Shown here piece after piece: positions 17,162 to 35,699 of a stretch of DNA of 64,000 nt (positions within the stretch are counted from its first letter, which is position 1; every line of letters starts with the position of its first letter). This stretch comes from Auricularia sp. M13 (taxonomy: Eukaryota > Basidiomycota > Agaricomycetes > Auriculariales > Auriculariaceae). Where the stretch lies: assembly GCA_037042915.1 (NCBI GenBank), contig CM073200.1, forward strand, positions 1,178,001 to 1,242,000. The letters run 5' to 3'. Made by a program: the position numbers and the translations under genes. The notes beneath the pieces were generated by a model, which saw nothing but the letters and a program-made list of their open reading frames with translations, did no database searches and was not told the origin of the DNA.

Positions 17162-18964
17162 ATGGGTTCGGACGATGACTCCGATGCCTCCGCTCGGAAA
17201 CGCTTTCCTAAGCGCTCAGTCCGGAGACTACAGGACGCCCCAAATGCAGGACTAGCCCCAGAGGCCTTGCCGAGTGCCGACGATGATGAAAACGGGTGGA
17301 CGACGGATGAAAGTCACAGTGACCAGGATGTACGCTCTCCCGGGACGTGGCTACTAAACATACGACTGATCGTGCGCAACGTCGTAGGTTACAATGTCCG
17401 ACAATCCTCGGCCGCCTGAGGGGAGCAACCGCGCACGGGCGTCTGTATCCGCCAGCGCCATGCATGCGGATGTACCTATGGTATTGAAAGTTGAAATTGC
17501 CATTGAAAGATCCGACTCACCTCACACTTCATCAAGGACATCGACTCTCAGCCAGTTCGCCGCACTTCGCATGAGCAGGCTGCTGCCAAGGACGCCATGC
17601 CCTCGATACCCGTTCCCAACACAACGTCTACTTCAACAGAGCAAATAACGACAGCTCCTGACAAGCCTCCGACGACTGCGGACGACCTGTCACGTCAGCC
17701 TGTACGTGGATATATGCAAATTGACCAGTATGTGCCATTATTCACGCTAAAGCCTTCGACAGGGTAATGGAAGCGACGATGTCTCCAACGTACGTGGCTC
17801 AGATCATTGTACAACGAGATGTGCCCCTCACTTATCTTCAGCGGATCGACGTTTTGCGTACCTCGGCGAGGGTGAACAAAGAAGCTATCCCAACACCTTC
17901 AACTAGTAAGGCTGTGCGTCTCAGGCAATAATTTCTCACACTTGGGCTGATCGCTCGCAGCGTCCCGATTACTCCATCGACGAGTTGCGTGAACTTCAAG
18001 TGCAACATTTCTACTTGGCGCGCGATTGCTCTCGCAAGTCGAAGCGAGTGGAGAGACATGCAACACCAACGCCTCTTGATCTCCAAGGCCTCCACCAATT
18101 GCACTACTGGGTCGTACAGACTAACAAGATGTTTATTCCACGTGCTACCGCAGTGACGAACAGCAGCGCTCCAACTCTTCAGCAATCCCAGGGTGCTGGT
18201 AATTCTACAGCGGGGCCGAGTAATAGTACTTTGGAGACTGTCGTGAGGTCGTCCCAAGTGTCGGATCCACAGGACGTAGTAGTCTCCTCGAAACCTCCGA
18301 CTGGCACCGGCCTTCCGACACGAAACCCTCAAACACAAGGAGCTGCGCCACAGAGACATGGAAAGAGTCCAGAGGATGATTTTCAACAAAGGCAGACTGC
18401 CGCGATAATGCAGCCAGCGCGGAGCGCCGCTGAGCGAGGTACAGCCCCACGGCAGGAGGTGGCACAGCATCTCAGTGCGACGCATTACGTTCAGGAGACG
18501 CTCCGCCAGCCTCCTCACCCGCAGGGCTGGCAGGCTCCAGTCCATGTGGCCCCGCATTTTCAAGTCGGGTTACAGACTGTCCCAGCCCAATATGTTTCAG
18601 GACATCAGCTGGTATCGCGTGCGTACTATAGGTTTTCTTGTCGAGCTTGAGATATTCTGACCCTGGTCATTCGCTCTTAGAATCTTACCACCCTACCGCA
18701 GGGACAGGGGTGGCAGTAATGCCTGCGGGACAACCATACTTTCCCTTTCCCAGCTCGCAATACTTTACAACTCTGCCTTCTTACCCACCCGTGCCCGGGT
18801 TTACAGGCCCTGCGCTGCCATTTCCACCGCCACAGGGCCACACAACCCCGTACAATTATCCGCCGCCACAGGGCACTACGATGCCATACCATTACGGTTA
18901 CATGATTCCGCACGATCGGTCGTTGAACGGAACGGGGACCCCGGGTGGTACAATGCGTCGATAA
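17162..18964 (+). CDS. Unrecognised Pro/Ser/Gln/Tyr-rich protein, 488 aa, seven exons
   Basis: Exons: 17162-17329, 17388-17480, 17537-17701, 17763-17789, 17842-17913, 17961-18618 and 18681-18964. Introns are 47-62 nt. The first has a textbook CTACTAAAC branch point. Five of six are phase 0 and the last is phase 1. The protein begins MGSDDDSDASARKRFPKRSV and is acidic then Ser/Thr/Pro-rich. It has one folded-looking segment (RPDYSIDELRELQVQHFYLA) and a Gln/Ser-rich stretch. The tail is aromatic and proline-rich (LPSYPPVPGFTGP.., YNYPPPQG), resembling low-complexity RNA-binding or coat-type regions. No signal peptide, no known domain. Exon 4 is only 27 nt. Confidence 0.6.
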
Positions 18965-19502
18965 GACAATGCTCTGACAGCGTATACTTACCAAACGAGT
19001 TAGTCCTCATTCACGCCCGCTGAGCTCTGTATCTTCATGGCTTTATCAATAGATGAATTATCACTGAACATAATTCGCCCAGCTGCATCATTGCCGCGGA
19101 TAGTTGGTCCGCCCCACGATTTTGCCGTGGCCGCTCCGAGATGCCCTTCCGCCGCAGAGCGTCATGAAATTCAACGACATGGCCCTGGCGTCAGATGACA
19201 TGCCCGAAGAGACCAAAGACACTCGTCAGTATCGTTGACCAACGGCCCGGGAGCAGGACCGCGCAGACATCCGGGACTTGTCTGAACTATTAATCGTTCC
19301 CGCTTGAGCTAGCCATGCTTGATGTAGGATGCGTTTTAAAGACCCCTAAGGGAGGATTAATTCTGCACTATGGAATCTAGTGTCTACTGGCGGTTGCGAA
19401 TATCAATGCCCTATGGCGCAGATGAAGCTTCAATAAATCTCGAAATGGCCAGATTTTTTCATAATTCCTCAGGCGTGGGTCCACCTGGCAAGCCTGAGAT
19501 GC
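18965..19502. other. No gene I can support
   Basis: 3' flank of the preceding gene; no supported frame or repeat. Confidence 0.35.
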
Positions 19503-20100
19503 GTGATCAGGTTCAGACAGTGCGTCCATGGACAATATGGCACGGACCAATTCGCAAACAGCGTCGAGTCTGGTGCGATCTTGCTTTGTGTAGGGCTTGG
19601 ATATGTCAAGATGTGCGATGGCCAGTTGATTGACGAGAGTCTGCAGGATATCTTAGGAGTTATCACGTCCAAAGTCGCGAGGCACATGCCTTGAGATTAT
19701 CGAAACGCTCATGACTCCACTGCAAAGCAACGACCAATCTGGACCACCCTCGCCTGATGGGCGTTGCCCAAGCCCCGTTATCCCAAGTAGTAGCCTGAGA
19801 CCCGCTGGCCGAACCGGGGACTTGCGTTTCGTGCGAATCGGCCGGCGCCAAAGTATCATATGGAACATGTATGTACGAGGTTGCCTCGACATCCCGGAGG
19901 GAGACGGTCTTAAAAGAGCGTTAATTGAAAGTCCGGATGCACTATGTGGCCAAGCTTACGGAGATGGTAGGCTCTGCAACCGTCATCGTGGACTCGTCCA
20001 GGGATTGTATGAGGTGGAGAAGAGAATAGAGCATTTCGTGCTTGACCATGACTTGGACATGAACAGGCACAGCGAATACCGCCTACGGAAAGCTTTGTGA
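19503..20100 (+). CDS. Coding-like plus-strand exons, hypothetical
   Basis: One frame (19503-19694) reads ..GQYGTDQFANSVESGAILLC and VKMCDGQLIDESLQDILGVI. Another (19711-20100) ends SPDALCGQAYGDGRLCNRHR then GLVQGLYEVEKRIEHFVLDH and a TGA. The C-x8-C-x2-H spacing is reminiscent of small zinc-binding inserts but is too short to assign. The two parts need a splice I could not place. Convergent with the minus-strand gene at 20102. Confidence 0.35.
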
Positions 20101-20101
20101 G

Positions 20102-21114
20102 TTACGACCGAGACCACGGAAGCAGTGGACTGACCATTGTTACCATCGCCGCACTGCACGGAGAGAGACACCTCTGAAGCTCAAATAAAGTTGAAGCTGA
20201 TGAGTGAGTGACGAGATGTTGTAGACTTACGAAGTCGTTTTCCGTGATAAGATACGGGGGTGCCTCAGCCTGGATCTTAATATCGATGATGGCGAAAGGG
20301 TTGGCATTTCGAAGTAACATTTCCTGAGCTTCGTCAGCAAGGTAACTAATGGCGCTAGGGTTTCATCGCACATGTATTATGAAGTTCACCAGAGAGCGCA
20401 TATCACATTTCTCGTTACGCGACGCGAAGGTCGGACCGAGCAGCTGGCGCGCATGTTAGTCTATGGCCGAAAAAAAAGAGAAACCAAAAACGATCTAACT
20501 GCGCTGACCTGAATTATTTCGTTTCGGAACGCAACTTCTTCACAGAAGACAGCCTCCGGAGATGTATTAAACGTTGGTGTCACGCTTTCCAATCCCAGGA
20601 CGGTCGAGAAGTCTGAATTGGGCGCTAACTGTTCTCCGAGCACAGGAAGGTCGTGAGGGTAGGAATCCGGAATCTGTAACGCCACTGTGAGCGTCGTAAG
20701 ATCAGTGAATAGGGAGCGCGTACATGAAGGGCCTCTTCGAGATCCCAAGCATCCAGGATTTCGGTCGGAGTCGGAGAAAAGTTGGATTCGATAGCTGGTG
20801 GGGAGAACTGAGGGTTTCAGACGGACTAGCGGATGCCAGGGTAGGACACTCACAATTTCGCTCGCGTGCTGATCAGATGCGGCAGGTTTGGAATTATCGG
20901 ACACCAACGAATGGTGACAAGCATCAATTTCGGGTAGTAGGTGGAGATTGAGTGAGTTGAGGTTACGCGCAGACGCCGCCCGCGTCGTGGGCCCACGATA
21001 TGCAACGGACGGACCGGCCCTAGCATCCTTGCGTTTATTCGAACTCTGCGCAGTATCTGAGACGAACGGCAGCAAATACCAAAGTAACCAAGGTAGAGGG
21101 CGCACCTTCGGCAT
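20102..21114 (-). CDS. Unrecognised protein, about 224 aa, five exons, all introns phase 0
   Basis: Exons (minus): about 20854-21114, 20724-20807, 20509-20673, 20231-20323 and 20102-20173. Introns are 46, 50, 185 and 57 nt, each with a GT..AG pair and frame kept at phase 0. Readable protein segments include TPTEILDAWDLEEALHIPDS, YPHDLPVLGEQLAPNSDFS, EAVFCEEVAFRNEIIQEMLL and NPFAIIDIKIQAEAPPYLIT. The acidic, helix-rich middle suggests a folded domain. Family not recognised. The start is uncertain: ATG 21114 (MPKVRPLPWLL..) is chosen, but an early intron is possible. It transcribes away from the GC-rich block at 21.2-21.9 kb. Confidence 0.5.
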
Positions 21115-21199
21115 GGCGTATGGGCGGGAATGCTCGAATGAAAGGGAGGGAAAGGATCGGAGCCTAAATACAGTCCCTAGCAGAAGCAATTGATAGTGA

Positions 21200-21900
21200 T
21201 CAGAGTGTGGCGGCGGCCGTCGGCAAAGTCGAATGGGTTAGATTGAGGCAGGACAAAGGCGAGGAGCGACGGCGGATGACGGCGGCGAGGCGGCAGCCGT
21301 CAGCAAAAGTCGAATGGGTTAGATTGAGGCAGGACAAAGACAGCGAGCGACGGCTGCGGGCGTCGACGGCAAGCTCGCAGTGCAATGATGGCGGCGAGGC
21401 GGCGGCCGTCAGCAAAGCCGACCGTACGAGATTGACGGCGCCAAGAGGCGGCAGGATTAAGACGGGAAGCGACGGCGGCTGGCGTCGACGGCGTGATGTT
21501 GTGAGAGTGATGCAACCGCCGTCGGCCAGCTGAGATTCGACCGTACGAGATTGACGGCGCCAAGATCTGGAAGCGGCAGGACAAAGACGGGGAGCGAGCG
21601 GCGGATTGAGTGGACGGCATGGTCCAGATGATACTGACGGCGGGGAGGCGGCCGCCGTCGGCGAGTCCGCGTCACCGCCGTCAGCGAGTCTGCCGAAATG
21701 AACTGACGGCGCCAAGAGAGCAGCGTGGGACAAGGAACGGCGCGGCGAGGGTGCCGTCGCCGGCGAGACTGCCAGAGTAATGCGCTGACGGCGCCAAGAG
21801 ACGGCGCGGGGCAAGAAACGACGGCGGCGAGACTGCCGTCGCCAGCGGGCCATCGGGTTAATGCGCTGACTTCACCGAGAGACGGCGCTGGGCAGCAAGG
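21200..21900 (-). repeat. GC-rich (GACGGCG)n-like block, copy 1, between divergent genes
   Basis: The block is dominated by GACGGCG/CGCCGTC words with recurring GACGGCGCCAAGAG and CGTACGAGATTGACGGCGCC. Most of it (about 21400-21830) reappears as the reverse complement at about 33690-34080. It sits between a minus gene starting near 21114 and a plus gene starting at 22110. Long open frames here are compositional. A short (TCAAGGT)n tract follows at 21947-21967. Confidence 0.7.
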
Positions 21901-22109
21901 GTGCCGTCGCCAGCATCACATGCATTGCTGGGCGTCAGCGGCTGTTCAAGGTTCAAGGTTCAAGGTTCATGTTCAGGCGCCGTCGCGGCCTCGGCCGATG
22001 CCTTTATTCTCTTGCCCTCCCGCTCCCAGTACAAAATGCGGCACCGCCGGCGCATATGGCTGCCCAAGTCGACCCCATCCGCCTGCGCGCCGCCTAGCCA
22101 CTCAGGAAG

Positions 22110-22960
22110 ATGAAATCCGCCCAGACCGCGACGAAGCAGCGTCGCAGCCCTCGCAGGAAGGAGCCCGTTGCGCCCAAGCCTGCGCCTGCATCCCGTACCC
22201 GCCGCGCTCGTACTGCCCGCAAGGGGCAGAAGCAGGCCGGCTCATCCTTCGAGGATGTCGACATGGCGGTGAGTGTCTAGCAGCCGTCCTAGTACCATTG
22301 CCCGGGAATTGACCATTGAGCTTCTTCAGACTGCAGACTCGCCACGGCCGGACGATGTCGGCCCAGCAGATCAGGGTCAGCACAACACGGGCATGTCTGG
22401 CCCGTGCGCGGACGGTACAGTGTCTCAGCATGGCTCCGTCGGCGAGCTCGTCGTCCAGGTCGGTGTTGTCTCGCCAAATTCCGCCTGCTGACGCGCTGCC
22501 AGCCAACGCTCGACGCAGAGACTGTGGCGTCGTTGTCTCCGCCGCCGCCGCACGTTATCCAGGTCTGTACATAGCCTCTCCACTCGCCCTTCACTCACGC
22601 TCCCCCAGCCCTCAATCGATCCATCGCTTTTATCACATCCTGTGGCCGACAGGTCCTTCCTCATGGACCCGCGACCGGAAGCTAATGCTCAGGTCTGTGC
22701 ACAGCTCACTCCTGTCTGTCCTATGCCCCGTCTCATCGGCCTTAGAATGAACATGTGCGGACTTCGCCGTTTCCTGAGCCGCAGCTTCGTTCCGCCCCGA
22801 CGGATATATTGCCCGTCCCCGCATCGTCTCGCCAGCCATCCTCCCCGCCGCCAGCTGACCCTTCTCCTTGTAACACGGGATCTGTGCGCTCGCTTCGTAC
22901 CCACCGTGTCCTATCGTTGACCATCCTCTATAGCACTGTATCCACATCGACTGGTCCGAC
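22110..22960 (+). CDS. Basic N-terminal protein of unknown function; 3' end unresolved
   Basis: ATG 22110 starts MKSAQTATKQRRSPRRKEPV, a Lys/Arg/Pro/Ala-rich nuclear-localisation-like head, ending GSSFEDVDMA at a GTGAGT donor. A phase-0 intron leads to TADSPRPDDVGPADQGQHNT.. and an in-frame TGA at about 22490. Further coding-like pieces follow (PTLDAETVASLSPPPPHVIQ, SFLMDPRPEANAQ), each ending CAG followed by GTCTGT or GTCGGT. Those are poor donors, so the 3' part is uncertain. Family not recognised. It faces away from the GC-rich block. Confidence 0.4.
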
Positions 22961-23735
22961 AGTCATGTCAACCTCCAAATCTTCAAGACTCCATCGGACG
23001 CGAAAGATTCCTCTAATCAGGTCCATTGCAGTATCAAGTGCGACAATATCAAGTGCGATGAAGTTCGTCCTTCACATTTTCGCTTATGCGCAACTGACAT
23101 ATCCCACAGGAACATCACCTCAACATCAACCTTTACTTCGGCCCCCTCCTCGTGCGCGATTTGACTCTCGGTGCAAATTAAGGCTATCCGACCACGGCTT
23201 CACGGCGCGCGACGTGTTTCTGTATGTTGAATAGAACATGCAGAATCATGTGCGATAGGCTGGATTGATTGGAACCGTGTCGCGCCGCCATGTCCCGACT
23301 GCACCACTTTGATGTTCGTAGGTACCTACTGAGAACTATAGATTCCGCGCCTGCATGATCTATTTATGGTTGCTGATATCCATCGTGTATGGCGGAATCT
23401 CTTGCCGATCTGAACTTTGTTTCGATATTTTATGCGTCAACGCTGAACTGCAATAGCTGGCCGCTGCCAGCTGCAGATGCCCAACGGCTCAAGCGATATG
23501 GCGAGGGCATATTAACGTGAACTTCGTCCAATGGATGACACCGGCGAAGTTCGTGCTCTATGTATCTGCCGCCACCTGTAGCGGCGCAAGAAGCTTCACC
23601 GCCACCAGCGAGTTCCGTCGCTGTCCCGGTCCGGCGCGATGTAGCCAAAGGGTCTATATTCTGGGATAACCCCCACACATTTCTGGGAGCACCCTAACTG
23701 GCCGGTGCCCCACATTTGAGGACTACCTAATACGG
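22961..23735. other. No gene I can support
   Basis: AT-balanced sequence with short frames only. Confidence 0.35.
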
Positions 23736-23807
23736 GGGGCCCCATGATAGTTGGGGTACCACAAAGACGGGTACCCAGATTTGCGTACCCAACTATCGTG
23801 GGGCCCC
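23736..23807. repeat. Long hairpin with GGGGCCCC ends
   Basis: GGGGCCCCATGATAGTTGGG at 23736 onward pairs with its near-complement at 23785-23807 (CAACTATCGTGGGGCCCC), leaving a loop of about 25 nt. It lies 180 bp beyond the 3' end of the KDZ fragment and could be an element end or a small foldback element. Confidence 0.5.
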
Positions 23808-23982
23808 AGATTCGGTATGCCTAAGACACTACCGAGGCCCTCGCATTGTCGTGACACAAGCCGGCGCACAGACCCTCCCTCGCAAAGTCTACTCAGGGAA
23901 GAAAACTGCCTAAGTACAAGATGACAAAGAATAGTTACAATATGGGTCGTGCATTAGAAAAACGCTTGTAACCACGGGAACT

Positions 23983-25105
23983 TTACCGACACCCCGTCCG
24001 AATATTGTGAAGGCGGCGCTCCCGGTTCCAAGTCGCCAAGTATGTATGAATGTAGATGATAGCGTGACGCTGAGTCATGTAACTGAGTGATCGTCGAATT
24101 TTGAGGAGTCCGCGGTTGCCGCACTCTGCCGCACTCGAGTTCACGGCGGCGAGCTCACTGTCGTTCTTGTAACTGCTGATCATGCAGCACTTCGAGCAAC
24201 GTGTATGGCCTTTAGCGTGAAACCCGTCGATCACAAACCGAGTTTTCTTGAAGAAGACTGGCTCGCGCATTACTGCATGGCTCGCGCAACATGCAGTAAT
24301 GCGCGAGTGCACACGCGAAGTCGTAGACGACGGTCTCAGGGGGTGTCTCCCAGCGAGTAAAAAGTGCCGAGAACACGTCGTTCCGTCCCTCCCCCTTGGG
24401 AATGCAATGGAAACCGAGACAAACGAGATGCGGGCACCACGCAGCCATTAGCCCGCCCGTCTGGCCCCTGATACCGTAGGCTTCGAAATATTTCGAACAG
24501 CCAATGCCGCCCGCGCCTCCGTCAGTGACAACAGAGCGGTCCACTTTGGCGTCCCCAGGTAAATGAGGATATTGCGGGCGAAGTCGAACCCGCGGCCGAC
24601 CATAAAAAGCACCGGTCTATGCAAAAATGAGGCCTTCAGACGCACATATGACTGTCTAACTCACCTCTCGCCAGTTCTCACTGTCGTCGAACGGTTCCGC
24701 AGGCTCAAAGTCGTGCTCGCTCAGACTGCACATAACTCGAATCGCGCGTTGCCGCACGAAGCCAACCACACCCCGCAAAGTCTGCGAGTACGACCCGCTC
24801 TCCTTCCACTCATGATACGCAACAGCTCCCAGGGCCGGCACGGTGCGTTTAAGTACGTTCGCCGCGTTCTCCTCGTTGTTTTCAAGACAGCATAATGCCA
24901 CCCAAGTCGATGCCGGCGTGAATAGCAAAACCGATTCATAAGCAAGAACCTGTGTTGCGGTCATCACGGCCGTCGCAAGCTCTGTCCGTTCGTCCGCGGG
25001 TTTTACGCCGCTTCGCCGAGCGTTCGGTCGCTGCTGCATACAGTCGGCGCACTGTTTACCCTCGGACGGAGACTCGGCCAGGGTTATACGCCTCGGGCTG
25101 TTCAA
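23983..25105 (-). pseudogene. KDZ-superfamily transposase fragment (HMGXB3-like), frameshifted
   Basis: A minus frame from 25105 to 24656 reads ..AYHEWKESGSYSQTLRGVVG.. and ends at a GTGAGT donor. Downstream, 24544-24212 reads KYFEAYGIRGQTGGLMAAWC, GFHCIPKGEGRNDVFSALFT and VVYDFACALAHYCMLREP. It then shifts to VFFKKTRFVIDGFHAKGHTR, AVNSSAAECGNRGLLKIRRS and ATWNRERR (stop at 23983). The Y-D-x-A-C and (I)D-x-F-H-x-x-x-H motifs are hallmarks of KDZ transposases (Kyakuja-Dileera-Zisupton), abundant in mushrooms. The frame break falls in a 19-bp duplication at about 24260-24288. The N-terminal CxC-type domain is not clearly present. Family assignment is from memory of these motifs. Confidence 0.6.
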
Positions 25106-25560
25106 CTCGGGATATGATCTGCACGCCGCTCTCTACCCACCCAGAGGGTGAGACGACCTCGGTGCATACCCCAATTCGGCTCGGTGGAGGCTTCCTACCC
25201 TCGGACCAAGGTTCGGCAGCTCTCCCCTCGCTGTATGCGTCGGATATGGGCGTTGTGGTGCTCGGGACAGGCTCCAGGACCACCCTTCTGACCTCGGGCG
25301 GACTCGGTGGGTCACCCTGAACAACCTCGGAGGGTCGGGAACACCTCTATTGGACTCCTCGTTGGTGCGATACCCTCGGATGGATAATAGGCCGGTTATC
25401 ATCGCCTGGTACAAGCTCGGCTACATCCTCGGACCCTCGGCCCGTGGCCTCAGCAGCTCGGCGCTCTCCCTGTGCACTCGGGAGGTGCTCTCCTTCTCGG
25501 TCCGTGCCCCCGGTGGGAGTGTGCGCGGATAGCATACCTCGGCATCTTCGCCCTGTCTCG
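25050..25560. repeat. Array of spaced CTCGG/TCGG motifs
   Basis: About two dozen CTCGG words occur at irregular spacings of 10-35 bp, often as CCTCGG(A/G), between otherwise unrelated bases. There is no fixed repeat unit. The array lies directly upstream of the KDZ fragment on its 5' side, the position expected for a subterminal transposase-binding region. Confidence 0.55.
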
Positions 25561-26706
25561 GATCAGGTTCGATTGGAGGTGTGGTAGGGTGTTGGCATCT
25601 TGGGAGACGATGGTGGATGGACCCTTTAGCTCTGGGATCACCCTGGACCGGATCAGCGGACCTTGGGGATGGGTATATAGGTTGTAGGGTGTAGATGCGT
25701 GTACCCTAGGTTTGGTCTGGTCAATTGTACCGCTTGTCCGTTCTTCCTCGTCTCTCTCTCCTCTCTTGGGCGTCGGTCTCGGCGAGTGACGAGCGCTCTG
25801 CCGTGACACAAATCGCCGCAAGCCGTCCTCAGGCAAGCGGGTGCTGTCGGGTCACCAGACCGGCAACAGCGGAAACCTAGGTCGCGGGCACCAGCCAGCG
25901 CAAGACGTCCGAGTGACAGCCGCGGGCACCAGCCAGCGCAAGTCGCCATCGCCGTGGTGTTGTTGAACGGGGACCACATGCGCCCGTGATCTGGTTGTGT
26001 TAGAATCCGCGCCTCCCGAAAGCCCGGCGCCGATACAGGGATAGACGAGAGCAAGCCAATGTATAATACTGGTTGTCCGTATGTCGTAGGTACACGAGGT
26101 AGCGACTACAGAACGAGACCGGACAACCAGATGAGAAACAAAGGTAAACAATCCGCCGGTCAATATCAGCGCGAAGCGGAAACATAATAAATCCATAACC
26201 CTACATGCTAACACAACTAGCATGTTGGGGCCATAGCCATTTACCATGTCGTGACTCATTGGCCGCTCTGGATTATTGTTGACAGCCTGTCAGGCAGCTG
26301 AACAACAACTGGACGCAGTATTCCCGCTCACATCGAATTCGAAATAACGCTGTCGAAAATATATCGATTGTGAAACAGGCAGTCGCTATGAGAAACTTGT
26401 ATCTGCATGCCCTTTGAGCGAGGACTAGAAAGGATTCTGGGCGTCTGGATCAGGCCGATGTGAAGAATGTACAGGAGAGCATATCTGGGTATCGCAAGCG
26501 ACTCTGTGACCTTTGGACGTCGTGCTGGAATGCTGATCTTCTCGTTAATGGACCGCATGAGTGTCATATGCATAAGCAGGGCGATGTTACGGCACAAGGA
26601 TGGCGAATCATTGACGTAAGGAAACGAGCATTGGAATAGACAGGATACAAAGATGCCCGCGACAAACGGCATCCAACAGTACTACACATCATCGATGGGG
26701 GAAACT
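25561..26706. other. Intergenic; a short tandem duplication and one weak minus ORF
   Basis: A 22-bp block containing GCGGGCACCAGCCAGCGCAA is duplicated at about 25884 and 25922. A minus frame 26259-25852 contains hydrophobic stretches (ACRVMDLLCFRFALILTGGL) but no recognised family or splice support. Nothing else could be supported. Confidence 0.35.
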
Positions 26707-28723
26707 TCAAACGTAAACAAACTCGATTCGAACATCGGTCTCGAAGACAGTCTGGCTCACGGGGTCACACAAGGGGTTGGGATAGTCGGTGGGGGGTGCA
26801 ATAGCATGGGGCTATGTGATAATTAGATACTTGATAAGAGAACGAGACTGACGGAAAAGGTGCATACCATAGGATGAGGCATAGGGGTCTTGAAGTCACA
26901 GCAAGCACATGTGAGGAAAGCCGAGGCGGTCAGCGAAGTAGACGGGCATACCTGAGACGATTGCACGGTGCAATCTCCGCTAGCTACCTGGGGAGGGACA
27001 TCGTCGCGTTGCATACTAAGTCCCAGCTATACATGGGCCAGTGAGCGGCATGCGCTGCAATTCAGTCGCATGGGACAGGTACCTGGGAGGGAGTGGCGGT
27101 ACGACCTTCCGCGCAGGACGGTGAGCAGTCCATTGCCGTTTGGAGCTGCGAACAGGATCAGGCGAGGGCGAGAGCAGCGTCGGAAAACTCACGAGGCGGC
27201 CGTCGGTGTTGGCGTGCGCCTGTACGCCGTGATGAAGCATGGTAGTCTGGGGCTTAAAGTAGCATGAGCGAGCAGACCACTACCAGCATCGTAAACTACT
27301 GTACCTGCGAGGGCGCAGGAGCGCGGCCGTACGCGTTGGACATAGCCCCGTTGGACCTCTGGGACTGCAGAGACGGTCAGATGGAGATGAGAAATATAGC
27401 TGAAAACCTCACGAGAGCGACATCGGCGCTCGCGTGTGCGGGCACACCGTGCTGAAGCGTCGTCGTCTGGGGCTGAGCGCAACATAAGCCAGCAGGCCGG
27501 TACCTGCATTGTACGCTGCCATACCTGCTGTTGAGCGGCAGCGCGGCCGTCCTGGCGGGACATCGCCCCGTTGGACGCCATGTGGGGCTGCAAAGCCGGT
27601 CAGGAAGGGACGAGAAAGACGGAGGGCGGTGAAGTCCTCACCAGGGCGACATCGGCGCTCGCGTGTGGGGGAACGCCATGATGAAGCGTCTTGGTCTGCG
27701 GCATAGGTGAGTAGGCCGGTACCTGCACTGTACACTGACATACCTGCGATGGAGCGACAGCGCGGCCGTCCTGGCGGGACATCGCCCCGTTGGACGTCAT
27801 CTGGGGCTGCAAAGCCGGTCAGGAAGGGACAAGAAAGACGGAGGGCGGTGAAGTCCTCACCAGGGCGACATCGGCGCTCGCGTGTGGGGGAACGCCATGA
27901 TGAAGCGTCTTGGTCTGCGGCATAGGTGAGTAGGCCGGTACCTGCACTGTACACTGACATACCTGCGATGGAGCGACAGCGCGGCCGTCCTGGCGGGACA
28001 TCGCCCCGTTGGACGTCATCTGGGGCTGCAAAGCCGGTCAGGAAGGGACAAGAAAGCTTGAGACGGCCGGTAGACTCACGGGGGCGACATCGGCGCTCGC
28101 GTGCGGGGTCACACCGTGATGAAGCGTCGTGGCCTGCGGCTAAGAGCAGCATAAATCACTAGGCCGGTACCTGCATTGTACGCTGCCATACCTGCTGTTG
28201 AGCGGCAGCGCGGCCGTCCTGGTGCGACATCGAGCCGTTGAACGTCATCCGGGGCTGCAAGCACGGTCAGCAGAAGCGCGGCCGGCACGGGAAAAGGACA
28301 TACGACGTCGGCGTTGTTTGTGACATCCTGCGACTCGAGCACACTTGCACCTTGAACGGGCATGGCAGGATTTGTTGGCTACGAAGAAGTTAGCATTTCT
28401 CGACCTTGAGCTGGGGCGCGCGAGGACTTACGAATCCAAAGTTGGGAAGGTAGCCGTACGAGCGATAGAAACCGAGCAGCTGTGACCAATGTTATCAAGA
28501 TTGCAGCAGAACGGATATGGGACTACAAACCTCATCTACGGTCCATGGGCTCTGCATAGCCGAACCAGGACCGAACGCGGCGGGCTGGAAAGGTGTCAGC
28601 GCTGGCAACACTATGATGTTGAAACTGAACAACGCTCACCGCGGGTGCTTGCCACTGACCTGCCAGGGCAGGTGCCGGTGCAACGAAGTTGGACTCGATC
28701 TCGTTGTTGTTCTGAAGCGACAT
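26707..28723 (-). CDS. Tandem micro-exon gene, about 370 aa, 18 exons, all introns phase 0
   Basis: Head exons: 28640-28723, 28531-28584, 28432-28479 and 28304-28378. Six A/B exon pairs: 28192-28254/28080-28133, 27963-28025/27861-27914, 27744-27806/27642-27695, 27525-27587/27413-27472, 27305-27364/27193-27246 and 27083-27145/26952-27026. Tail: 26868-26888 and 26707-26811. Every exon is a multiple of three and introns are 47-63 nt with GT..AG. The protein starts MSLQNNNEIESNFVAPAPAL and includes LLGFYRSYGYLPNFGF. A-exons read like PQMTSNGAMSRQDGRAVAPS and B-exons like TKTLHHGVPPHASADVAL. It ends ..SQTVFETDVRIEFVYV with a TGA. The A/B modules are low-complexity and polar, with no recognised domain or signal peptide. 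Alternative AG acceptors (CAGCAG type) could change B-exons by two residues. Confidence 0.65.
27588..28026 (-). repeat. 219-bp exon-intron tandem repeat, two nearly identical units
   Basis: Units at 27588-27806 and 27807-28025 are almost base-for-base identical, introns included. Each holds 63-nt exon A, a 48-nt intron, 54-nt exon B and a 54-nt intron. Flanking units (27305-27587 and 28080-28254) are diverged copies with indels. Near-identity of introns implies recent unequal crossing-over or gene conversion. Confidence 0.85.
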
Positions 28724-28813
28724 TGGGGACGTGGACTGAATGGCCGCGCCGACCCGCCATTAAGTACGCGACCCATGCTTGCCGTTGCGCGAGGTTGTGC
28801 GTGCACGCCTTGC

Positions 28814-28990
28814 CCAATGCACGTCGTCTTGATCAATGCACGTCGTCCGGACCAATGCACGCCAAGGAAATCTGGATTATGCCATCGTCGTTCCTGATAG
28901 ATCGACGGCAACGGCAACGGCGTCGGCGACGGCAACGGCGACGGCGGGGGATGGCGGCGGCGAAGGGCGACGGCGAGGGACGGCGACGGC
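28814..28990 (-). promoter_or_regulatory. Upstream region of the micro-exon gene: triple CAATGCACG motif and GGCGAC tract
   Basis: CAATGCACGTCGTC-like sequence occurs three times about 19-20 bp apart (about 28815, 28834 and 28853), starting about 90 bp upstream of the start codon. A (GGCGAC/GGCAAC)n tract follows at about 28907-28990. The regular spacing suggests a binding-site cluster; this is inference. Confidence 0.4.
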
Positions 28991-29158
28991 GAGATCGTTC
29001 GCACTGGGCCGCGACGCATGGTACTTACTCGCCAAGGGTCCACTGGATTCGGCCGATCCGTCCCGTCTTCCGTTTAGCTGCCGCGAACCTGATGTTGGCA
29101 GTTTGCGTGCCTGCCAGGGCAAAGGCGGTTGGCGCTTGAGCACAAGTCTCCGGCGGCG

Positions 29159-29467
29159 CTACTTGTCCTCGAGCTCTGAGGAAATGCTGAACTCATCAGT
29201 GAGCAGACAACCAGGAAACACGAGCAAAACGCCGCCCACCGTGCGAGGCACCAGTTGCTGGCCCCTGACTCTGAGCTGCGAACGCAGCTGCCGCGTGTGC
29301 AGCTGATTGTGATTATACCGGGCGTTCGCTTTCACTAGGCTCAAGCGCTCGACCCACACGTGTAGCGCGCGTTCAACGTCATCTGCCAGATCTCGTGTTA
29401 TGAGATTGTTTCGGACTCCGATTCCAGCCCAGTCCGAATCTGTTTTCTGAGTTGCAGACGGGCTCAT
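29159..29467 (-). CDS. Hypothetical protein, 102 aa
   Basis: ATG 29467 opens MSPSATQKTDSDWAGIGVRN, followed by LADDVERALHVWVERLSLVK and TVGGVLLVFPGCLLTDEFSI, ending at 29159. The balanced charge and an amphipathic helix make it coding-like. It could be a first exon. It lies about 435 bp upstream of, and on the same strand as, the micro-exon gene. No family recognised. Confidence 0.4.
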   Translation of the reverse strand: MSPSATQKTDSDWAGIGVRNNLITRDLADDVERALHVWVERLSLVKANARYNHNQLHTRQLRSQLRVRGQQLVPRTVGGVLLVFPGCLLTDEFSISSELEDK

Positions 29468-30527
29468 TCGTGCCCTTAGTCGACCCGTTGGTCACTCAGG
29501 GCATCCTGGTATGGATTGCAGCTGGTCCGTCGGTCCATCCGTCTGCGTAGCATGGGCTGTCGACAACCCAGCAAAATTGTTGCATCGCTGGCGACTGTGT
29601 CTGTCAGAGCGCCTTGGTTCGTGCTCTTATCCCGATAATCTTGCCTTTGTTCCATGCCCTGGTCTTGATATGACCTGCCTGCTTCTTGCGGCTTTGTTGG
29701 AGCGCGTCGTCGCTGCCCTGACCGTACGTACGTGTGTCTGTTGATCCCACCTACTGGCGCTCTGGGCCTCGTGCCATGCGTCTCCTACCAAGGCGATCTC
29801 ACGGCGGCACTCTAATCTCTTGCTCATTTACTCGAGATCTGGCTTTATCCATACACGTGTGCTCCCTCATGAGCACAATGCCGCCTTCAGGTCCCGACGC
29901 AGTGCTGCGCCCACATCCGCTTCATCGCTCCGTCCCACTCCCCGACGCCTCTTCTGCCCGGGCCCATGCGTACATCGTCCTCTGGGAGCGTCAAGCAAGC
30001 TCGATTCCACAACGCGAGCTCTCCAGGGATGAGGACGGTGCTCGTCAAACCCATTCCGCGGGCAACGTTGCCAGAACCTTGCTCCTGCTCTTTACGTCCT
30101 CGATATCCATTGTCCTCCAATGCATCTGCACGGACGCGACATCGCTCAATGCACCAGTCGTGCGATATAAACATCCGGACGCCTGAGTCCTTGGATCGCA
30201 TACCTCGTATCTCCCCCGCGTCCGTTCGTCTTCACTGCCGGCCCTCGTAATCAATGCCAAAGGCCAGCTCTCCTCTCCTTTCCCCCGCGTCAGCACGTTC
30301 TCACACCCGCCACAGTACACATCTGCCAAGACGTCTTCCCGCGAGACCACCACCGCGCGATACGAACGGCTCCCCCCGCGTCTGGATCAGCTTGCCCATT
30401 CCAGTGCTGCTGACCCTCCACGCGCCCTCTCTTCCGATCTCCATGTCTCGCACGGAGGATTCTTTTTTCCTAATCTTCTTGTCTCGCCCGTATGTCTCAT
30501 CTCTTTGCGCCGATCGAAACCTGATAA
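29468..30527. other. Intergenic, CT-rich upstream region of the 30.5-kb gene
   Basis: Plus-strand pyrimidine-rich sequence rises toward 30530 (TCTCCCCCGCGTC-like words). Open frames of about 100 codons on both strands lack motifs. Confidence 0.35.
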
Positions 30528-31382
30528 ATGCATCAGAAAGCCCCTCCCTCACTCGATCCGGCCGCACAGTATCCATCGTCGCCGTCGCCGTTCACCGTCT
30601 CGGAGGACTTGCAGGATGACTTGCACGTAAGCCCTCAGGATCTACTTCTCCTCGCCTTACTCATAGCCACGCACAGCCCGGAAACCTCCGCCGTCGTGTC
30701 CCTGAACGTCCCGTACGTTTCTACTCGTTCATCTCTGTCAGAGTTTGAATCAATGTTCATAAAGGACTTTAACGGTTTGTGCGACGGGCACGACGGCGAG
30801 CCATCTACGGTGACGGCTATAGGGATCGCGGCCTCTGTGAGCCGGTCATTTCCGCTTCGAACGCTGCTGATTGCGTCTGTGCAGGATGATTCTCTTTGGG
30901 ATTTTGCCGTAGGATTGCAGGCCGTGCATTTTCCCCCTTCTCCCGCGTCTCTTGTGCCTTCCCCTGCCGAGCGCCTCGCCATTCCTAAACCCCGAGGTCG
31001 ACACTCCCGGCCAAATGGTGGTGGCTACAATCTTCGACGGACCTTGGCATGGACTGATGAGCGCTACAAGGACGTGAGGGTAAGAGCTCATTCGTTAAGC
31101 CATTGTCAGTATGGACATGACCTCCTATAGGAAATGATATCCCGCCTTGCCGCTCAGCACCTCGACATCTCCCAATGTTACAGCAAGCAGGAAAAGGCGA
31201 ATATACAGGTCGTCTGCAACTTGGTGAGTGCAACGCCGTGGTATGCAATGCTGTTAACCACCTTGTTTGGATAGGCGTGTGACGAGGATGAGATGCTCAG
31301 GGATTACGTGGGAACGTGGCCCGTTCACATTATGTTACAGATTTATCTGCATCGCTCATCTTTTTCCATTCGCCATATGTAG
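30528..31382 (+). CDS. Unrecognised protein, 250 aa, three exons, phase-0 introns
   Basis: Exons 30528-31079, 31131-31223 and 31275-31382 are separated by two 51-nt introns (GTAAGA..CTATAG and GTGAGT..GGATAG, the second with a TTAACC branch-like site). The protein starts MHQKAPPSLDPAAQYPSSPS. A central region reads SLSEFESMFIKDFNGLCDGH and LLIASVQDDSLWDFAVGLQA. The C-terminal helical region reads TDERYKDVREMISRLAAQHL, DISQCYSKQEKANIQVVCNL and DEMLRDYVGTWPVHIMLQIY. Exons 2 and 3 encode the most fold-like part. I believe similar C-terminal regions occur in other mushroom hypothetical proteins but cannot name a family. Confidence 0.6.
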
Positions 31383-32660
31383 ACTACAATTTTATCCAAG
31401 CTACCGAACCTTCTGTGTCATCTCAGCGAATGATCATGTCCGAACGGTCGTTTCTAGTACTAGTCAATGTGCCGGTCGAAAGGAAAGTCAAGAACCGCGT
31501 ACGAAAACTAAAATATCTCGGGGCATAATCATAATGTATCGTGCCGAGGCATCGTAACTCGCACAAAGAAACATTAAGATGCCGCATTCTCTCACGTACA
31601 CTCCGGGAAGCTTCGAGATTTGCTCAAAGCACTTCCAGAGTGCCACCTAGCGGAGATTGGTAATGTTGTTCCGGAAGAGTGAACTGGACGGCAGAGTTAG
31701 AGTATACGGCAGGAATGTCATCCTAGGCCTATGATGTCATCCCATCGCTCGAATCACGCTGCAGTACTAAGCATACTTATGGGACCGCGGATAGTCGGCG
31801 AAGCAGCAATGGGTAAGGTTAGAAAAGGAGGTCACTCCTGGAGTGCAGGATGCCAGAACGTGCTAGCACTAGTACTGTGAGAAGCGCCAGAGCAGGCCTA
31901 TGGACAGCGATAGGAGGCGGTACTGTTCCACGAAAACTCGAATGCCTACGGTGTGTACTGACCTCTGTTCCAACTGAAACGTCTCCTCCTGACGTAACAA
32001 CATACTTCTCCCTGACGTGCCGCGGGCTAGGATCTCACTTCGCGATGCGACCTCGTCGAGCCCACACATCTAGCACGTTGTCGAAGATTGCCAGCCGGCC
32101 CCTCATTTTCCCCCAAATTTGTCCCTCAGATCACTGGATCAGATATTGAGGAGGACGGAAAGGTCGGGTGATGCACGTCGAGCTAATAGTGCTACGTACT
32201 TGGGAGCCGCATATATATGGCTTGACATACAGTACAGATTACTTAGTAGATGCTTTCCGTACGATCTCAGATGCCCGGCAGTGCCAGATAGCCAGAAAGC
32301 TCGTTCGAAGTATCTAGTCCGCGGTCTTCAATCCATTGATCCTCAATACTACTGTTTCCCTTGTCCTCTTTCATATCGCCGTTAAGGCTGTCTAAGAGAA
32401 CCAGCTATTTCAGATCGATCTCCTGAGAGGGCATCCAGCTTATCTGGCGATTCCGTTCTGGAATTAAGCAAAGGGAATGCAATTATTCCCGCGTGAGCTA
32501 ACTTGAGCGCTTAAGACCATGCCGTCCCTCAACTTCAGCGATCTCCAATGGACCTGCGCGTCAATACACAAACAGGCTCACTGCACTTCAAGACTGTTTC
32601 CAGTGGATAACTGAATATGATATTCATCGCTCTCTAGCACAAGCCCTTGCCAATGCCTTC
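31383..32660. other. No gene I can support
   Basis: AT-balanced region with short frames, no repeats and no motifs. Confidence 0.4.
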
Positions 32661-33402
32661 CTACACTTGGTTGATGGTCATGTAGTGAATGGTGCCGTTA
32701 AAGTTGTTCACGATGTTCACCGTCTGCCCACTCTGCGACTTGCGTAAATTCTCGGGGGTCCTGGATAGATCAGGGATTCTGCCTTGGACGACGGGGGACC
32801 TCGGAGGATGCACATGAGGAGTCTTCTGAGAGTGAGGTTGATGTTCGACTCCACAGAAGGAGAACTCATACCTTGGCGGGTTCCTTGCGTGCACGTGTTG
32901 TAGGGATGTCCTTATTGGCACCCTGGCCACTATGGCTCTCAGATTCCTTCCAATCTGGACGCGTGGTAGTATGGAGTTCACTTGTTGTGCCAAGTTCTCC
33001 TGTATGAACCGTGGGGCATCCAATGGATAGGATGCTTGAGACGAGTCGTCTATCCTCTTCATCCACGGAGAGAGATTCCTGGGTCCAACTAGGTGAAGGG
33101 GACACCGATTCATGATCATTCTCTGTGGCCGTCACCTAGGACTATGAGTATCAAATGTCGTGATGTAGTCCCGATGTACTAACAAAAGAACGACACTCGG
33201 AAGGCGGAGTGGCTGAGATATGGACGCGCGGCTGGTGGATATATGTCAGTGTCAAAGCTACCTGAGTTACTGACTGCTGTTGCGCCGCGGTACCTTCTTC
33301 AATGCCTGTGACGTTAGGGAGAACGATGCGCGACGCTTCAAGTTGATGGACGACGACATAGACGCAGTGTGACTGAGAAATATTCATATGAGCGACGAAC
33401 AT
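32661..33402 (-). CDS. Unrecognised protein, 215 aa, three exons, phase-0 introns
   Basis: Exons (minus): 33184-33402, 32872-33135 and 32661-32825, with introns of 48 (GTTAGT) and 46 nt (GTATGA), both phase 0. The N-terminus reads MFVAHMNISQSHCVYVVVHQ; an ATG at 33387 is a possible alternative start. The middle is Ser/Thr/Glu-rich (SPSPSWTQESLSVDEEDRRL). The C-terminus GQTVNIVNNFNGTIHYMTIN is beta-like and resembles the short Asn/Thr/Ile-rich tails seen in fungal innate-immunity-like proteins, a loose analogy only. It reads away from the second GC-rich block. Confidence 0.5.
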
Positions 33403-33639
33403 TTGGGCGAGTTAAATACACAGGTACGGGGCAAAAGTTGTCTATTTGCCCGCTGCATTGATGGGCGAAGCCGCCGAGGACATTGGCTGTGTCCGCCAAT
33501 CACCTTCCGCGGAAGATTTGAATCGGTCCTATCGGCTGTATCGGAATTCAACTTCAGGACTTCTTTGAACAAAATGCGGGGGCCTGTCGGTGCGACAGAT
33601 GCCGGAAGACCCGTGCCCAATTAGCACTCCGACTGGTGT

Positions 33640-34100
33640 GGCACCTTGCCCCCACCGCCCGCGCCGTCGTTTTACCTGCGCCGTCTCTTGGCGCCGTGTC
33701 AGCGCATTACTCTGGCAGTCTCGCCGGCGACGGCACCCTCGCCGTCGCCGTTCCTTGTCCCACGCTGCTCTCTTGGCGCCGTCAGTTCATTTCGGCAGAC
33801 TCGCTGACGGCGGTGACGCGGACTCGCCGACGGCGGCCGCCTCCCCGCCGTCAGTATCATCTGGATCATGCCGTCCACTCAATCCGCCGTCGCTCCCCGT
33901 CTTTGTCCCGCCGCTTTCAGATCTTGGCGCCGTCAATCTCGTACGGTCGAATCTCAGCTGGCCGACGGCGGACGCCAGCCGCCGTCGCTTCCCGTCAATC
34001 CTGCCGCCTCTTGGCGCCGTCAATCTCGTACGGTCGGCTTTGCTGGCGGTCGCCGCCTCGCCGTCTTTGTCCTGCCGTCACTGCGCAGCCCCACATTCCT
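33640..34100 (+). repeat. GC-rich block, copy 2, inverted relative to 21.4-21.8 kb
   Basis: Words such as CGCCGTCAATCTCGTACGGTC and CTCTTGGCGCCGTC match the reverse complement of copy 1 over about 400-480 bp with small indels. It lies between the minus gene starting at 33402 and the plus gene starting at 34309, so both copies occupy divergent intergenic space. Confidence 0.7.
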
Positions 34101-34308
34101 GGCAGTCTTCCCTTCGTTTCGCTCTCTGACGTCCGCCACCTTCGCGACGTTAGCCGGATGCTTTCCCACCTTGGTCCCTCTGCATCCTGGTCCCGTGGCG
34201 CCTCTCCGATTTGCTTAAAAAGCCGCGCTCGCCTGTCTTCGGGCTCTTCCAACATCCACACATCCCACACGCCGAATATCTGTCTTCCCTCTCCTCGCAT
34301 AAGGCTTC

Positions 34309-35699
34309 ATGACTCAGGTCGACATCACCCGCGATACTCCTTCTCACGCTCCGGGTTCCTTTGCCAAGAGCATTATCGACCTGAGCCTCGCTGAAGGTCA
34401 TGATCGTGCACTCGCTGCCCTCAGGCAAGCACACCCGTCCGTTGATATGGACGATGTCAGTCTCTGGCTGGCCTACATTAAGGACTGTCACTCAGCGGGT
34501 GTCGAACCTTCGGCCTTCATCATGCAATCCTTTCCGCTCGTCGCGTGGACAAAGTTCCTTCGCTCTGGACACGGTGCGAGGCTTGTGGTCAGTCCTTGCA
34601 CCTGTTATAGACTCGCACAAGCACTGATCTTCCGTACCATGCAGCCCGATCTTGCACGATTGCTTCCAGAGTCGAATGTGAGTCTAGTCGCGCAGTTTCC
34701 TTATTTGAGCTCAGCATCTGCTCTCAATCTCAGTCTAGAACTATTTCTGGACTCGATATTCCGGCCGTCGTTCATTCAACTGAGAATCACGTACTACCCC
34801 CACATTCGCCCGCGTCCGAACCGAGTCAAGAGCCCGAAATGCCGCCCGCTCCGCCACCTTCCCCTCAGACTCCTCACAACTGTTTCATCTCTGGGGTACG
34901 AAGAGCGTGCTCGTTGATATTGCCTTCACACTCCTGACACATGTGTTGTACAGCAGCAGAAGGATGAAGTTCCAATTTCCTCCGCCGCCATGGCGACCTC
35001 GCTGCATATGTCCCCTCTGCTGCCTGTCGAGGTAATTCGTTCATTTCGTCCTATCTTGTACGATCTGACTCACGCGTAGACTTCCAATGAGCCTTCGGAA
35101 GAATGCCTTGTTAGACCGGCTCCTGGTGACGACACCGTTGCACCCGTAGCCGAAATTCTGGTGGGTAAACTTGAGCGTCTGTCGCATTACCTCTTGTTCT
35201 GTTCTGATTATAGATCTTGCAGCGAACTCGCTTTGATACCCACGGAGTTATCAACATGGTATTTGGCAAAGTTACCATCGGCACCTTGAATACGCATACA
35301 CTTCTTTGACCCTCTTTCGTCTTGGTTGATGATCATAGGTCCCTGATGTACGTTCCTAAATCATTACAACTTCAGTGCACCTCCATTTCGTCTACTCCCC
35401 CAAACGGACGCTATCCAGAGGATTGAGATCGTTCGATTTGCCGAGGGCTTTGAGTTTCTGGTACACATGCCAATGACCACCCAGTGTATGTGATATCGTC
35501 CAACAAAGAAATTGTGATGAACCATCTTCGCGCCGCTAGAGCGTCAGTCAAAGACCCACACAGGAGGCATTACCAAGTCGAACGGGATTTTGCGTTCAAT
35601 TATATTCTGAAAGAATGGTTACTCTTAACGCGCTTCTCAGAGCACCTTGAGCGAGGACAAGGTCCAAATGAGTGCAGGGATAACTCGAACAAACCATGA
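34309..35699 (+). CDS. Unrecognised Ser/Pro-rich multi-exon protein; 3' part unresolved
   Basis: Well-supported exons: 34309-34587, 34645-34677, 34734-34895, 34960-35031, 35080-35160 and 35214-35258, all multiples of three. The five introns joining them are 48-64 nt, all phase 0. The protein starts MTQVDITRDTPSHAPGSFAK, with LAALRQAHPSVDMDDVSLWL, a Pro-rich stretch and RTRFDTHGVINM. Beyond 35258, coding-like segments continue in two more frames (..LNHYNFSAPPFRLLPQTDAI, RIEIVRFAEGFEFLVHM, then NHLRAARASVKDPHRRHYQV to a TGA at 35697-35699), so the tail is either mis-spliced in my model or frameshifted. Exon 2 is only 33 nt. Family not recognised. Confidence 0.5.

Follow-up and report, generated by a model that had tools for sequence, protein, structure and literature searches.

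Genes assembled from short exons of a single phase are otherwise known from a few fast-evolving animal and ciliate families. The window, a stretch of 64,000 nucleotides on chromosome C8 of an Auricularia genome, contains a block of about 18 kb in which genes of this design were suspected, raising the question of whether the pattern is real, where else it occurs and how it might be maintained. A sequence-only reading had considered such a fungal locus new, in agreement with the literature searched, where no fungal case of uniform-phase short-exon genes was found. That reading was partly supported by the present analysis; it missed the recurrence of the genes at six other loci and the age of their introns. 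Our preferred explanation, to which we assign a probability of roughly 55%, is that the block is part of a ~250-kb cluster of real, fast-diversifying genes on C8, that the proteins are probably intracellular, that the cluster is one of seven paralogous loci, and that the symmetric exons are frame-neutral.

Gene models of the block

The predicted genes and associated elements, in window coordinates, are:
17162..18964, plus strand: 17.2 kb gene, family C; 7 exons, 485 aa, intron phases 0,0,0,0,0,1
19942..21114, minus strand: 20.1 kb gene, relative of family A; 8-exon model, phases 0,1,0,0,0,0,0, 3' end uncertain
21209..22109, no strand: GC-rich repeat between the head-to-head genes at 20.1 and 22.1 kb
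22110..23181, plus strand: 22.1 kb gene; 7 exons, 256 aa, 6/6 introns phase 0, basic N-terminus
26707..28723, minus strand: 26.7 kb gene; 17 exons, 384 aa, 15/16 introns phase 0, tandem exon-pair copies
27181..28368, minus strand: 219-bp tandem unit of two exons and two introns within the 26.7 kb gene
30254..31382, plus strand: 30.5 kb gene, family A; 8 exons, 258 aa, 7/7 introns phase 0
32661..33359, minus strand: 32.7 kb gene; 3' part firm (reading of the type 33135-32872 plus 32825-32661), 5' part uncertain
33662..34063, no strand: inverted second copy of the GC-rich repeat, between the genes at 32.7 and 34.3 kb
34309..35309, plus strand: 34.3 kb gene, family B; 6 exons, 239 aa, 5/5 introns phase 0

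Several of these models required decisions at their ends. Forced to the stop at 18964, the 17.2 kb model scores -22.5, so that its coding statistics are weak; left free, it ends at 17767, contains three phase-0 introns and scores -2.2. The 20.1 kb gene is not well ended at 19942, because A-type sequence runs past the model to ~19.39 kb with one further phase-0 intron (19494-19547). It resembles the A gene of L027, another C8 locus (26/72 identical, E 6e-7), and a search match lies at C8:1197545. The last two exons of the 30.5 kb gene were placed by comparison with the paralogue in L027; without it, the gene finder stopped at 31282. For the 34.3 kb gene, the stop at 35309 was chosen because the genes in L022 and L026 have the same C-terminus, although an end at 35426 has a small advantage in score (8.4 versus 6.3); its first exon encodes a helical-looking N-terminal domain and its C-terminus is strand-like. 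The 32.7 kb gene had been read as another phase-0 gene, which stands for its last intron (46 nt, phase 0), whereas the automatic model forced to a stop gave phases 2,1,0 with a negative score and the rest is uncertain. At 29.2 kb, where a gene had been suspected and left aside, the gene finder called none.

The genes are arranged head to head, and two of the three pairs flank the GC-rich repeat. Six further copies of the repeat at 21209..22109 lie on C8, with 98.2-99.6% identity, and the inverted copy matches at 89% in a gapped alignment of 438 nt, rising to 97-99% within blocks free of gaps. The repeat is nearly identical among copies and the neighbouring genes differ; its position suggests a promoter-like element.

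Intron phase and exon length

Genes were called with a GHMM whose score contains no phase term, self-trained on 20 other regions of the genome (L001-L020), where it found 76 genes and 241 introns (102/70/69 in phases 0/1/2). With default settings, 20 of the 21 introns called in the block were phase 0 and one was phase 2, all from two genes only; elsewhere in the window the count was 5/10/10 (5/25 phase 0), bearing out the observation that genes outside the block use other phases. A sensitive prior gave 38/2/2 inside the block versus 11/20/17 in the window outside it.

Fixed-start models of six genes, excluding the 32.7 kb gene, refine these counts to 47 introns with phases 44/2/1 (Fisher test against 102/241, p 1e-11), so the share in the predicted genes of the other regions lies below that of the block. 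Collapsing the 219-bp tandem units leaves 38/41 in phase 0 (p 3.6e-10, Fisher). Omitting the doubtful 20.1 kb model gives 38/40. The sequence-only reading had counted about 35 introns with one exception; the bias persists, but with three exceptions, namely intron 6 of the 17.2 kb gene, intron 2 of the 20.1 kb gene (a doubtful call of 220 nt) and intron 14 of the 26.7 kb gene. The 22.1 kb gene, which had escaped earlier testing, follows the same rule throughout. Among genes of L001-L020 with at least four introns, 0/23 were entirely phase 0 (0/26 at the sensitive prior) and one reached at least 80%.

Exon lengths are similarly unusual, as had been claimed: 28/41 internal exons of the six models have a length that is a multiple of three and does not exceed 93 nt (median 72 nt), compared with 23/177 in L001-L020 at default settings and 28/210 at the sensitive prior. 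The introns are mostly 44-67 nt and lie nearly always between codons. Choosing splices that keep frames open could in principle create such a pattern, a caution voiced in the sequence-only reading. Dinucleotide shuffles of the block (n=30) yielded in total three genes with five introns, and genes made to start at an ATG of shuffled sequence (n=60) had 5/19 introns in phase 0. Together with the phase-free gene finder, these controls rule out a frame-keeping artefact as the source of the excess. Coding scores of the 17.2, 20.1, 30.5 and 34.3 kb models are weak, and three choices were made by hand before counting (the last two exons at 30.5 kb, the stop at 34.3 kb and the forced stop at 17.2 kb). 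The phase-0 short-exon observation is confirmed for predicted gene models, and the block is an outlier in short symmetric phase-0 exons relative to the 20 other regions.

Recurrence across the genome

Three mutually dissimilar families are represented in the block: A (20.1 and 30.5 kb), B (34.3 kb) and C (17.2 kb). Families B and C occur together in this C8 cluster and at six other loci, and A at six of these seven. Family B has 20 matches at E <1e-7, all at these loci and on C12, plus one weak match elsewhere; family C has seven, one per locus, that on C6 reaching only E 0.056. For family A, 9/9 off-C8 matches in one search fall at these loci, as does every off-C8 match in a second, most at E 0.0001-0.5. 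Two of the loci are on chromosome C1; the searches of C3, C5, C9, C10 and C11 yielded none.

The phase-0 introns are old. Two introns of the A C-terminal domain keep their place and phase across loci at 33-48% protein identity, and both lie directly after a complete codon in copies drawn from several loci. The other C8 loci (L021-L029) have 69/80 introns in phase 0 (99/124 at the sensitive prior), many of these being copies; family B includes exceptions on C4 (phases 0,2) and in L029 (0001002). Local duplication extends to the remaining genes: the 22.1 kb gene has copies in L022, L023, L024, L028 and L029, too alike for Ka/Ks, and the 26.7 kb gene in L021 and L025.

Selection and divergence between copies

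Ka/Ks ratios of 0.15-0.41 show purifying selection on family B and on the C-terminal part of A. The spliced B gene gives 0.23 over 223 codons, the B domain 0.15-0.16 where Ks is unsaturated, the comparison of C7 with C12 0.16, and the C-terminal part of A 0.41. In the N-terminal part of A, 15 replacement changes face 2 silent ones. The 32.7 kb gene (Ka/Ks 0.67 against L023 over 142 codons) and the 26.7 kb gene (0.62) are weakly constrained. Four of the seven introns compared between paralogues differ by 1 or 4 nt (57/58, 56/52, 51/50, 46/47), and each of the six exons compared shows a length difference of 0 or 3 nt. Conservation in family A is much the same for introns (0.68-0.84) and exons (0.76-0.83).

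The 30.5 kb gene is a mosaic: it is 98.7% identical to L027 up to 30740, within an intron, and 77.7% identical from 30778 onwards. A segment containing three exons in L027 and L021 is missing from it, yet the frame is kept. At 26.7 kb, whole exon pairs have been duplicated in tandem.

A proposed model of exon-wise diversification

In our preferred explanation each gene would be a string of mostly short exons that start and end in phase 0, so that gain, loss or exchange of a whole exon leaves the frame intact. Recombination among near-identical local copies could then swap, add or drop whole exons, and the locus would diversify by exon modules. Head-to-head partners might be re-paired by recombination within a common two-way promoter, the GC-rich repeat. 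Exon symmetry may persist because shuffling is thereby harmless, or may be a legacy of a small number of founder genes.

As to function, our guess is that the genes act in nonself recognition or in some other genetic conflict. We find it rather unlikely, and offer it tentatively, that the genes form a hitherto undescribed basidiomycete system of recognition or drive spanning several loci. In it, seven loci would encode modular intracellular proteins from at least three families, head-to-head pairs would have a homogenised promoter in common, and symmetric phase-0 exons would allow specificities to be rebuilt, with no frameshift, through exon loss, duplication and exchange and through re-pairing. 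The somatic incompatibility loci of mushroom-forming fungi would be natural candidates for such a system; we know of no gene identified for them. If the models hold, one fungus has seven loci with the same unrelated families, all of frame-neutral exon design, exon-level diversification would become testable in genetically convenient organisms, and mushroom-forming fungi would gain specific loci as candidates for drive or for recognition within the cell.

Domain and origin searches

The genes had been described as lacking known domains, and no tested protein reaches the Pfam cut-off. Sub-threshold Pfam matches are RM2_Med14 for the 22.1 kb protein (E 0.13), DUF5817_CT (0.0033) and LacZ_4 (0.0063) for the repetitive 26.7 kb protein, and DUF7889, Cdd1 and Phage_integrase (0.18-0.25) for single B members; no LRR is among the Pfam matches. 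The best NCBIfam match for A is 0.077, and PDB profile matches are 0.043 for B and 0.083 for A. B and the 32.7 kb protein terminate in a short strand-like motif centred on a glycine, reminiscent of the motifs of amyloid or RHIM-like signalling proteins; Pfam gave no amyloid-motif match up to E 10 for the 34.3 kb, 32.7 kb and C6 B proteins. Profiles of A and B gave 23 and 5 pattern matches in IMG/VR, none confirmed, and the best PHROGs match was E 0.044 for B. A viral origin was rejected, with no relatives in either database.

Alternative explanations

The presence of one gene set at seven chromosomal places could also reflect the copying of a giant mobile element or block of genes, like Starships or Spok blocks, that carried A, B and C and passed on a founder's phase bias of no functional role. 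Recent movement did take place: the B genes of C1:5.61, C1:5.68 and C2:2.54 score identically and the B-C spacing is ~6 kb on both C1 and C2, which indicates recent segment copying between chromosomes, and the B genes of C7 and C12 are 95% alike. Most loci are nevertheless old, with ~30-50% protein identity between them, and the transposons at 44-62 kb of the window are dispersed, 1/67 among the matches listed lying within the C8 cluster span; we regard this explanation as unlikely. The same dispersal, the two loci on C1 and the five chromosomes without one leave a centromeric identity unsupported, even though several chromosomes have one locus each with repeats nearby. STE3 genes occur solely on C7, at 1.495 and 1.537 Mb, which places them ~0.2 Mb from the locus on that chromosome and rules out the mating-type receptor locus; that the loci mark either structure is very improbable.

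Uniform phase might instead stem from introner-like insertion or a site bias, which by itself could favour one phase in every family of a locus, with no part for exon shuffling. Against this, 839 pairs of introns from different genes show no similarity beyond that of shuffled pairs (maximum 22 versus 22), by which introners proper are ruled out, and the genome's other genes are 42% phase 0; we consider it improbable. Hardly credible is the suspicion that the models represent, for the most part, artefacts or the remains of pseudogenes, prompted by weak codon scores, GC-rich repeats, the broken ends at 20.1 and 32.7 kb and fragments of kinase and other genes in neighbouring copies, since family B shows Ka/Ks of 0.15-0.23 over old divergence, shuffles yield almost nothing and introns are kept between loci. 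A likeness to secreted host-manipulation genes, drawn in the sequence-only reading and favoured by uniform-phase short exons, clustering and rapid divergence, was not supported: the seven predicted N-termini have no hydrophobic stretch (simple hydropathy, highest 11-residue value 1.27, judged against a threshold for signal-peptide-like stretches). This argues against secreted effectors, makes that reading quite improbable and suggests that the proteins are intracellular.

Comparison with known systems

Schistosome micro-exon genes share the short symmetric exons and differ in encoding secreted flatworm proteins. Aphid bicycle genes (PMC9168663) likewise have many small internal exons of one phase, diverge fast and lack relatives of known function; they are putative plant effectors with phase-2 exons, whereas 44/47 introns of the block are phase 0 and the proteins here have no signal-peptide-like N-terminus. 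Within fungi, Podospora Spok blocks are reported (PMC6660238) to place genes of one system at different chromosomal positions, as here; Spok is, however, described as one family tied to spore killing, against several families in this case. The Trichoderma gene Xlr2 provides a microexon in a filamentous fungus, which is reported (PMC11121469) to be a single regulated exon of one transcription-factor gene and not a short-exon family. Ciliate LRR genes are reported to number in the thousands and to be young and fast-expanding with one-phase symmetric exon arrays, and the youngest lie in particular chromosome regions; their authors proposed exon shuffling. Their exons are exactly 90 bp, in phase 2, and encode an LRR domain, whereas the fungal genes combine varied exon lengths, phase 0 and no LRR in three unrelated families at seven loci.

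Phase bias and short exons in the block

Intron phase was analyzed in the 52.1 Mb genome (14 contigs) using a generalised hidden Markov model whose score has no intron-phase term. The gene finder was trained on twenty 10-kb stretches (L001-L020) at round coordinates on nine contigs, excluding C8, the contig on which the window spans positions 1178001-1242000. It predicted 76 genes there, with 241 introns in phases 0/1/2 of 102/70/69. The splice signals learned (GTRMGT donors, a CTGAC-like branch site, CAG acceptors and a median intron of 56 nt) and two STE3 loci fit a basidiomycete. These two receptor genes lie at C7:1494922-1537722, about 0.2 Mb off the C7 locus of the families described below. 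Default and sensitive-prior settings were used, and six block genes, named by their position in kb, were also modelled from fixed starts.

The sequence-only reading had described a block of short, symmetric phase-0 exons, and the fixed-start models confirm it: 44 of 47 introns are phase 0 (44/2/1), and, of the 41 internal exons, 28 measure 93 nt or less with a length that is a multiple of three, versus 23/177 in the control stretches at default and 28/210 at the sensitive prior. That all but one intron would be phase 0 was too strong, since three depart from it, but the excess stands. When a tandem unit in the 26.7 gene is collapsed, phase 0 still accounts for 38/41 introns (Fisher p 3.6e-10). 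Default settings recover two genes in the block (22110-23181 and 26707-28723) with 20/21 phase-0 introns, versus 5/25 in the window outside it; with the sensitive prior the counts are 38/42 and 11/48.

That reading had itself cautioned that splices chosen to keep frames open could create the bias, and had proposed a comparison with the genome at large. The share of 102/241 in the control stretches is well under that of the block. Thirty shuffles of the block gave 3 genes with 5 introns in total, and 60 genes forced in shuffled DNA gave 19 introns, 5 of them phase 0. The phase-free gene finder, the control stretches and the shuffles together show that the bias is not made by the method. The finding also extends further than that reading had described.

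As for single models, 17.2 forced to its stop scores -22.5, and the free model ends earlier with three introns, all phase 0. The 20.1 model includes a doubtful 220-nt intron; family-A sequence runs on beyond that stop as far as about 19.39 kb and shows one further phase-0 intron there. The 5' half of the 32.7 model is uncertain, and paralogues guided the choice of the final exons in 30.5 and of the stop in 34.3. The gene finder found no gene at 29.2 kb, a gene place named earlier; the interval 28724-30253 would then separate the two members of a head-to-head pair.

Related families elsewhere in the genome

Three families, A (20.1 and 30.5), B (34.3) and C (17.2), recur at seven loci, this cluster included. 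Queried with its C12 member, family B gives 21 rows, 20 of them with E <1e-7: C12 (1), C7 (3), C1 near 5.6 Mb (2), C2 (1), C1 near 9.2 Mb (3), C6 (3), C4 (2) and C8 (5); the weak extra row is C1:1.253 Mb (E 0.003). The C7 member of family C finds seven rows, one each on C7, C2, C1 (5.68), C1 (9.19), C4, C8 and C6, six with E <=1.1e-7 and C6 at 0.056. The C8 member finds C7 at 5e-8, C6, C2 and C1 (5.68) at 0.002-0.006, and a stray row at C8:2.97 Mb (E 0.03); the C7 and C8 domains share 27/68 residues. Family A has 9 rows off C8, all close to B/C loci (E 0.002-0.12), and a second query adds more, all at those loci. The A queries found no member on C2, and C12 has family B alone of the three. The gene 20.1 is an A relative, 26/72 identical to the A gene of L027, another C8 cluster locus. 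Searches with 22.1, 26.7 and 32.7 matched C8 only. Scores are identical for the B matches at C1:5.612, C1:5.676 and C2:2.542 Mb, and some 6 kb lie between B and C on both C1 and C2; this points to recent copying between chromosomes.

The phase is old: two introns of the A C-terminal domain, placed by eye using frames and candidate splice sites, sit at matching positions. The C1 (5.54), C4, C6, C7 (GC donor) and C8 copies have the first intron directly after a complete codon, and those of C1 (5.54), C1 (9.24), C6, C7 and C8 have the second one so placed; the proteins are 33-48% identical to the L027 gene. From a fixed ATG, B genes give phases 00002 (C12), 00000 (C7), 0000 (C6) and 02 (C4), and on C8 0000, 0000 and 0001002, later exons being uncertain throughout. 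In the other C8 cluster loci (L021-L029), 69/80 introns at default and 99/124 at the sensitive prior are phase 0, counts that include copies and non-family genes.

Selection and divergence between copies

Among the matches listed, most of the block has duplicates within C8:1.01-1.26 Mb, and comparison with older copies indicates that its genes are real. Against an older copy, Ka/Ks of the B gene after splicing is 0.23 (223 codons; Ks 1.69, near saturation). For the B domain, Ka/Ks is 0.15-0.16 in the three C8 pairs whose Ks is usable, another three being saturated. B of C7 compared with that of C12 gives 0.16, and B within C6 gives 0.29, a value based on four changes. In family A, Ka/Ks is 0.41 over the C-terminal part, and the changes in the N-terminal part number 15 replacement and 2 silent. 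Against older copies, 26.7 and 32.7 give 0.62 and 0.67; the 22.1 copies differ at one site.

Between paralogues, all six exons compared shift in length by 0 or 3 nt, and four of seven introns by 1 or 4 nt (57/58, 56/52, 51/50, 46/47; the others 62/62, 51/54, 48/48). In sequence identity, exons and introns are only partly distinct: B exons 1 and 2 stand at 0.74 and 0.70 versus 0.53 and 0.62 for introns 1 and 2, but both reach 0.63 at the gene end, and A exons (0.76-0.83) overlap A introns (0.68-0.84).

The variable tails of B-type and 32.7 proteins keep a short, hydrophobic, strand-like motif centred on a glycine (GVINMVFGKVTIGTL; ALSIIIGNITADRL; VNIVNNFNGTIHYMTI), found at the C-termini of 34.3 (35223-35309), L026, L029, L031 and 32.7 (32661-32720).

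Exon modules and a candidate shared promoter

The 30.5 gene is a mosaic, 98.7% identical to L027 up to 30740, a breakpoint within an intron, and 77.7% from 30778. Three L027 exons between these points are absent and the frame stays open; L021 also carries them, so the window copy has probably lost them. The 26.7 gene contains tandem copies of a unit made up of two exons with two introns. Both are events that symmetric exons permit.

Six genes form head-to-head pairs (20.1/22.1, 26.7/30.5, 32.7/34.3), and two of the three gaps contain a GC-rich repeat. The first copy has at least 6 others on C8 at 98.2-99.6% identity among the matches listed, the second 89-90% with gaps. The genes beside the repeat vary: 22.1-type and B genes (L022, L029), B (L026), or 22.1-type and 32.7-type (L023). 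The repeat may act as a two-way promoter shared by neighbours and could also serve recombination.

Protein-kinase-like exons lie beside cluster copies at L022:1518-2873, where the gene finder merged them with a 22.1-type gene, and L026:5772-6753; they probably come from an adjacent gene, parts of which were copied together with the cluster.

Comparison with known systems

Seven protein starts have no hydrophobic stretch, which would place the products inside the cell and leaves the earlier likening to secreted effectors unsupported. The nearest exon designs are those of Tetrahymena LRR genes (PMC6564038; 90-bp exons, phase 2) and the bicycle genes of aphids (PMC9168663; phase 2). The block genes resemble both in exon design but fall outside them, differing in phase, exon length, domain or N-terminus. 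Functional microexons in filamentous fungi are given as undescribed before a Trichoderma gene in PMC11121469, and our searches of open-access papers showed no fungal locus of this exon design.

Other elements in the window

4265-5706: degenerate tandem repeats of 20-21 bp in two groups, core TGCGCACGGA
23638-24952: stretch adjoining the next element; among the matches listed, dispersed copies at 98% (C8:2211584, C4:966839)
24953-25808: LTR-like element of 856 bp with TG...CA ends; at least 28 further copies (92-100% identity), at least six pairs of which are spaced by about 3.4 kb, like the paired ends of a single element
44970-47970, minus strand: reverse-transcriptase-like and tyrosine-recombinase-like frames, taken to be DIRS-like; relatives of about 75% at C13:57-61 kb
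50715-51119 and 54061-54497: arms of an inverted repeat with 95-96% complementarity, separated by about 3 kb
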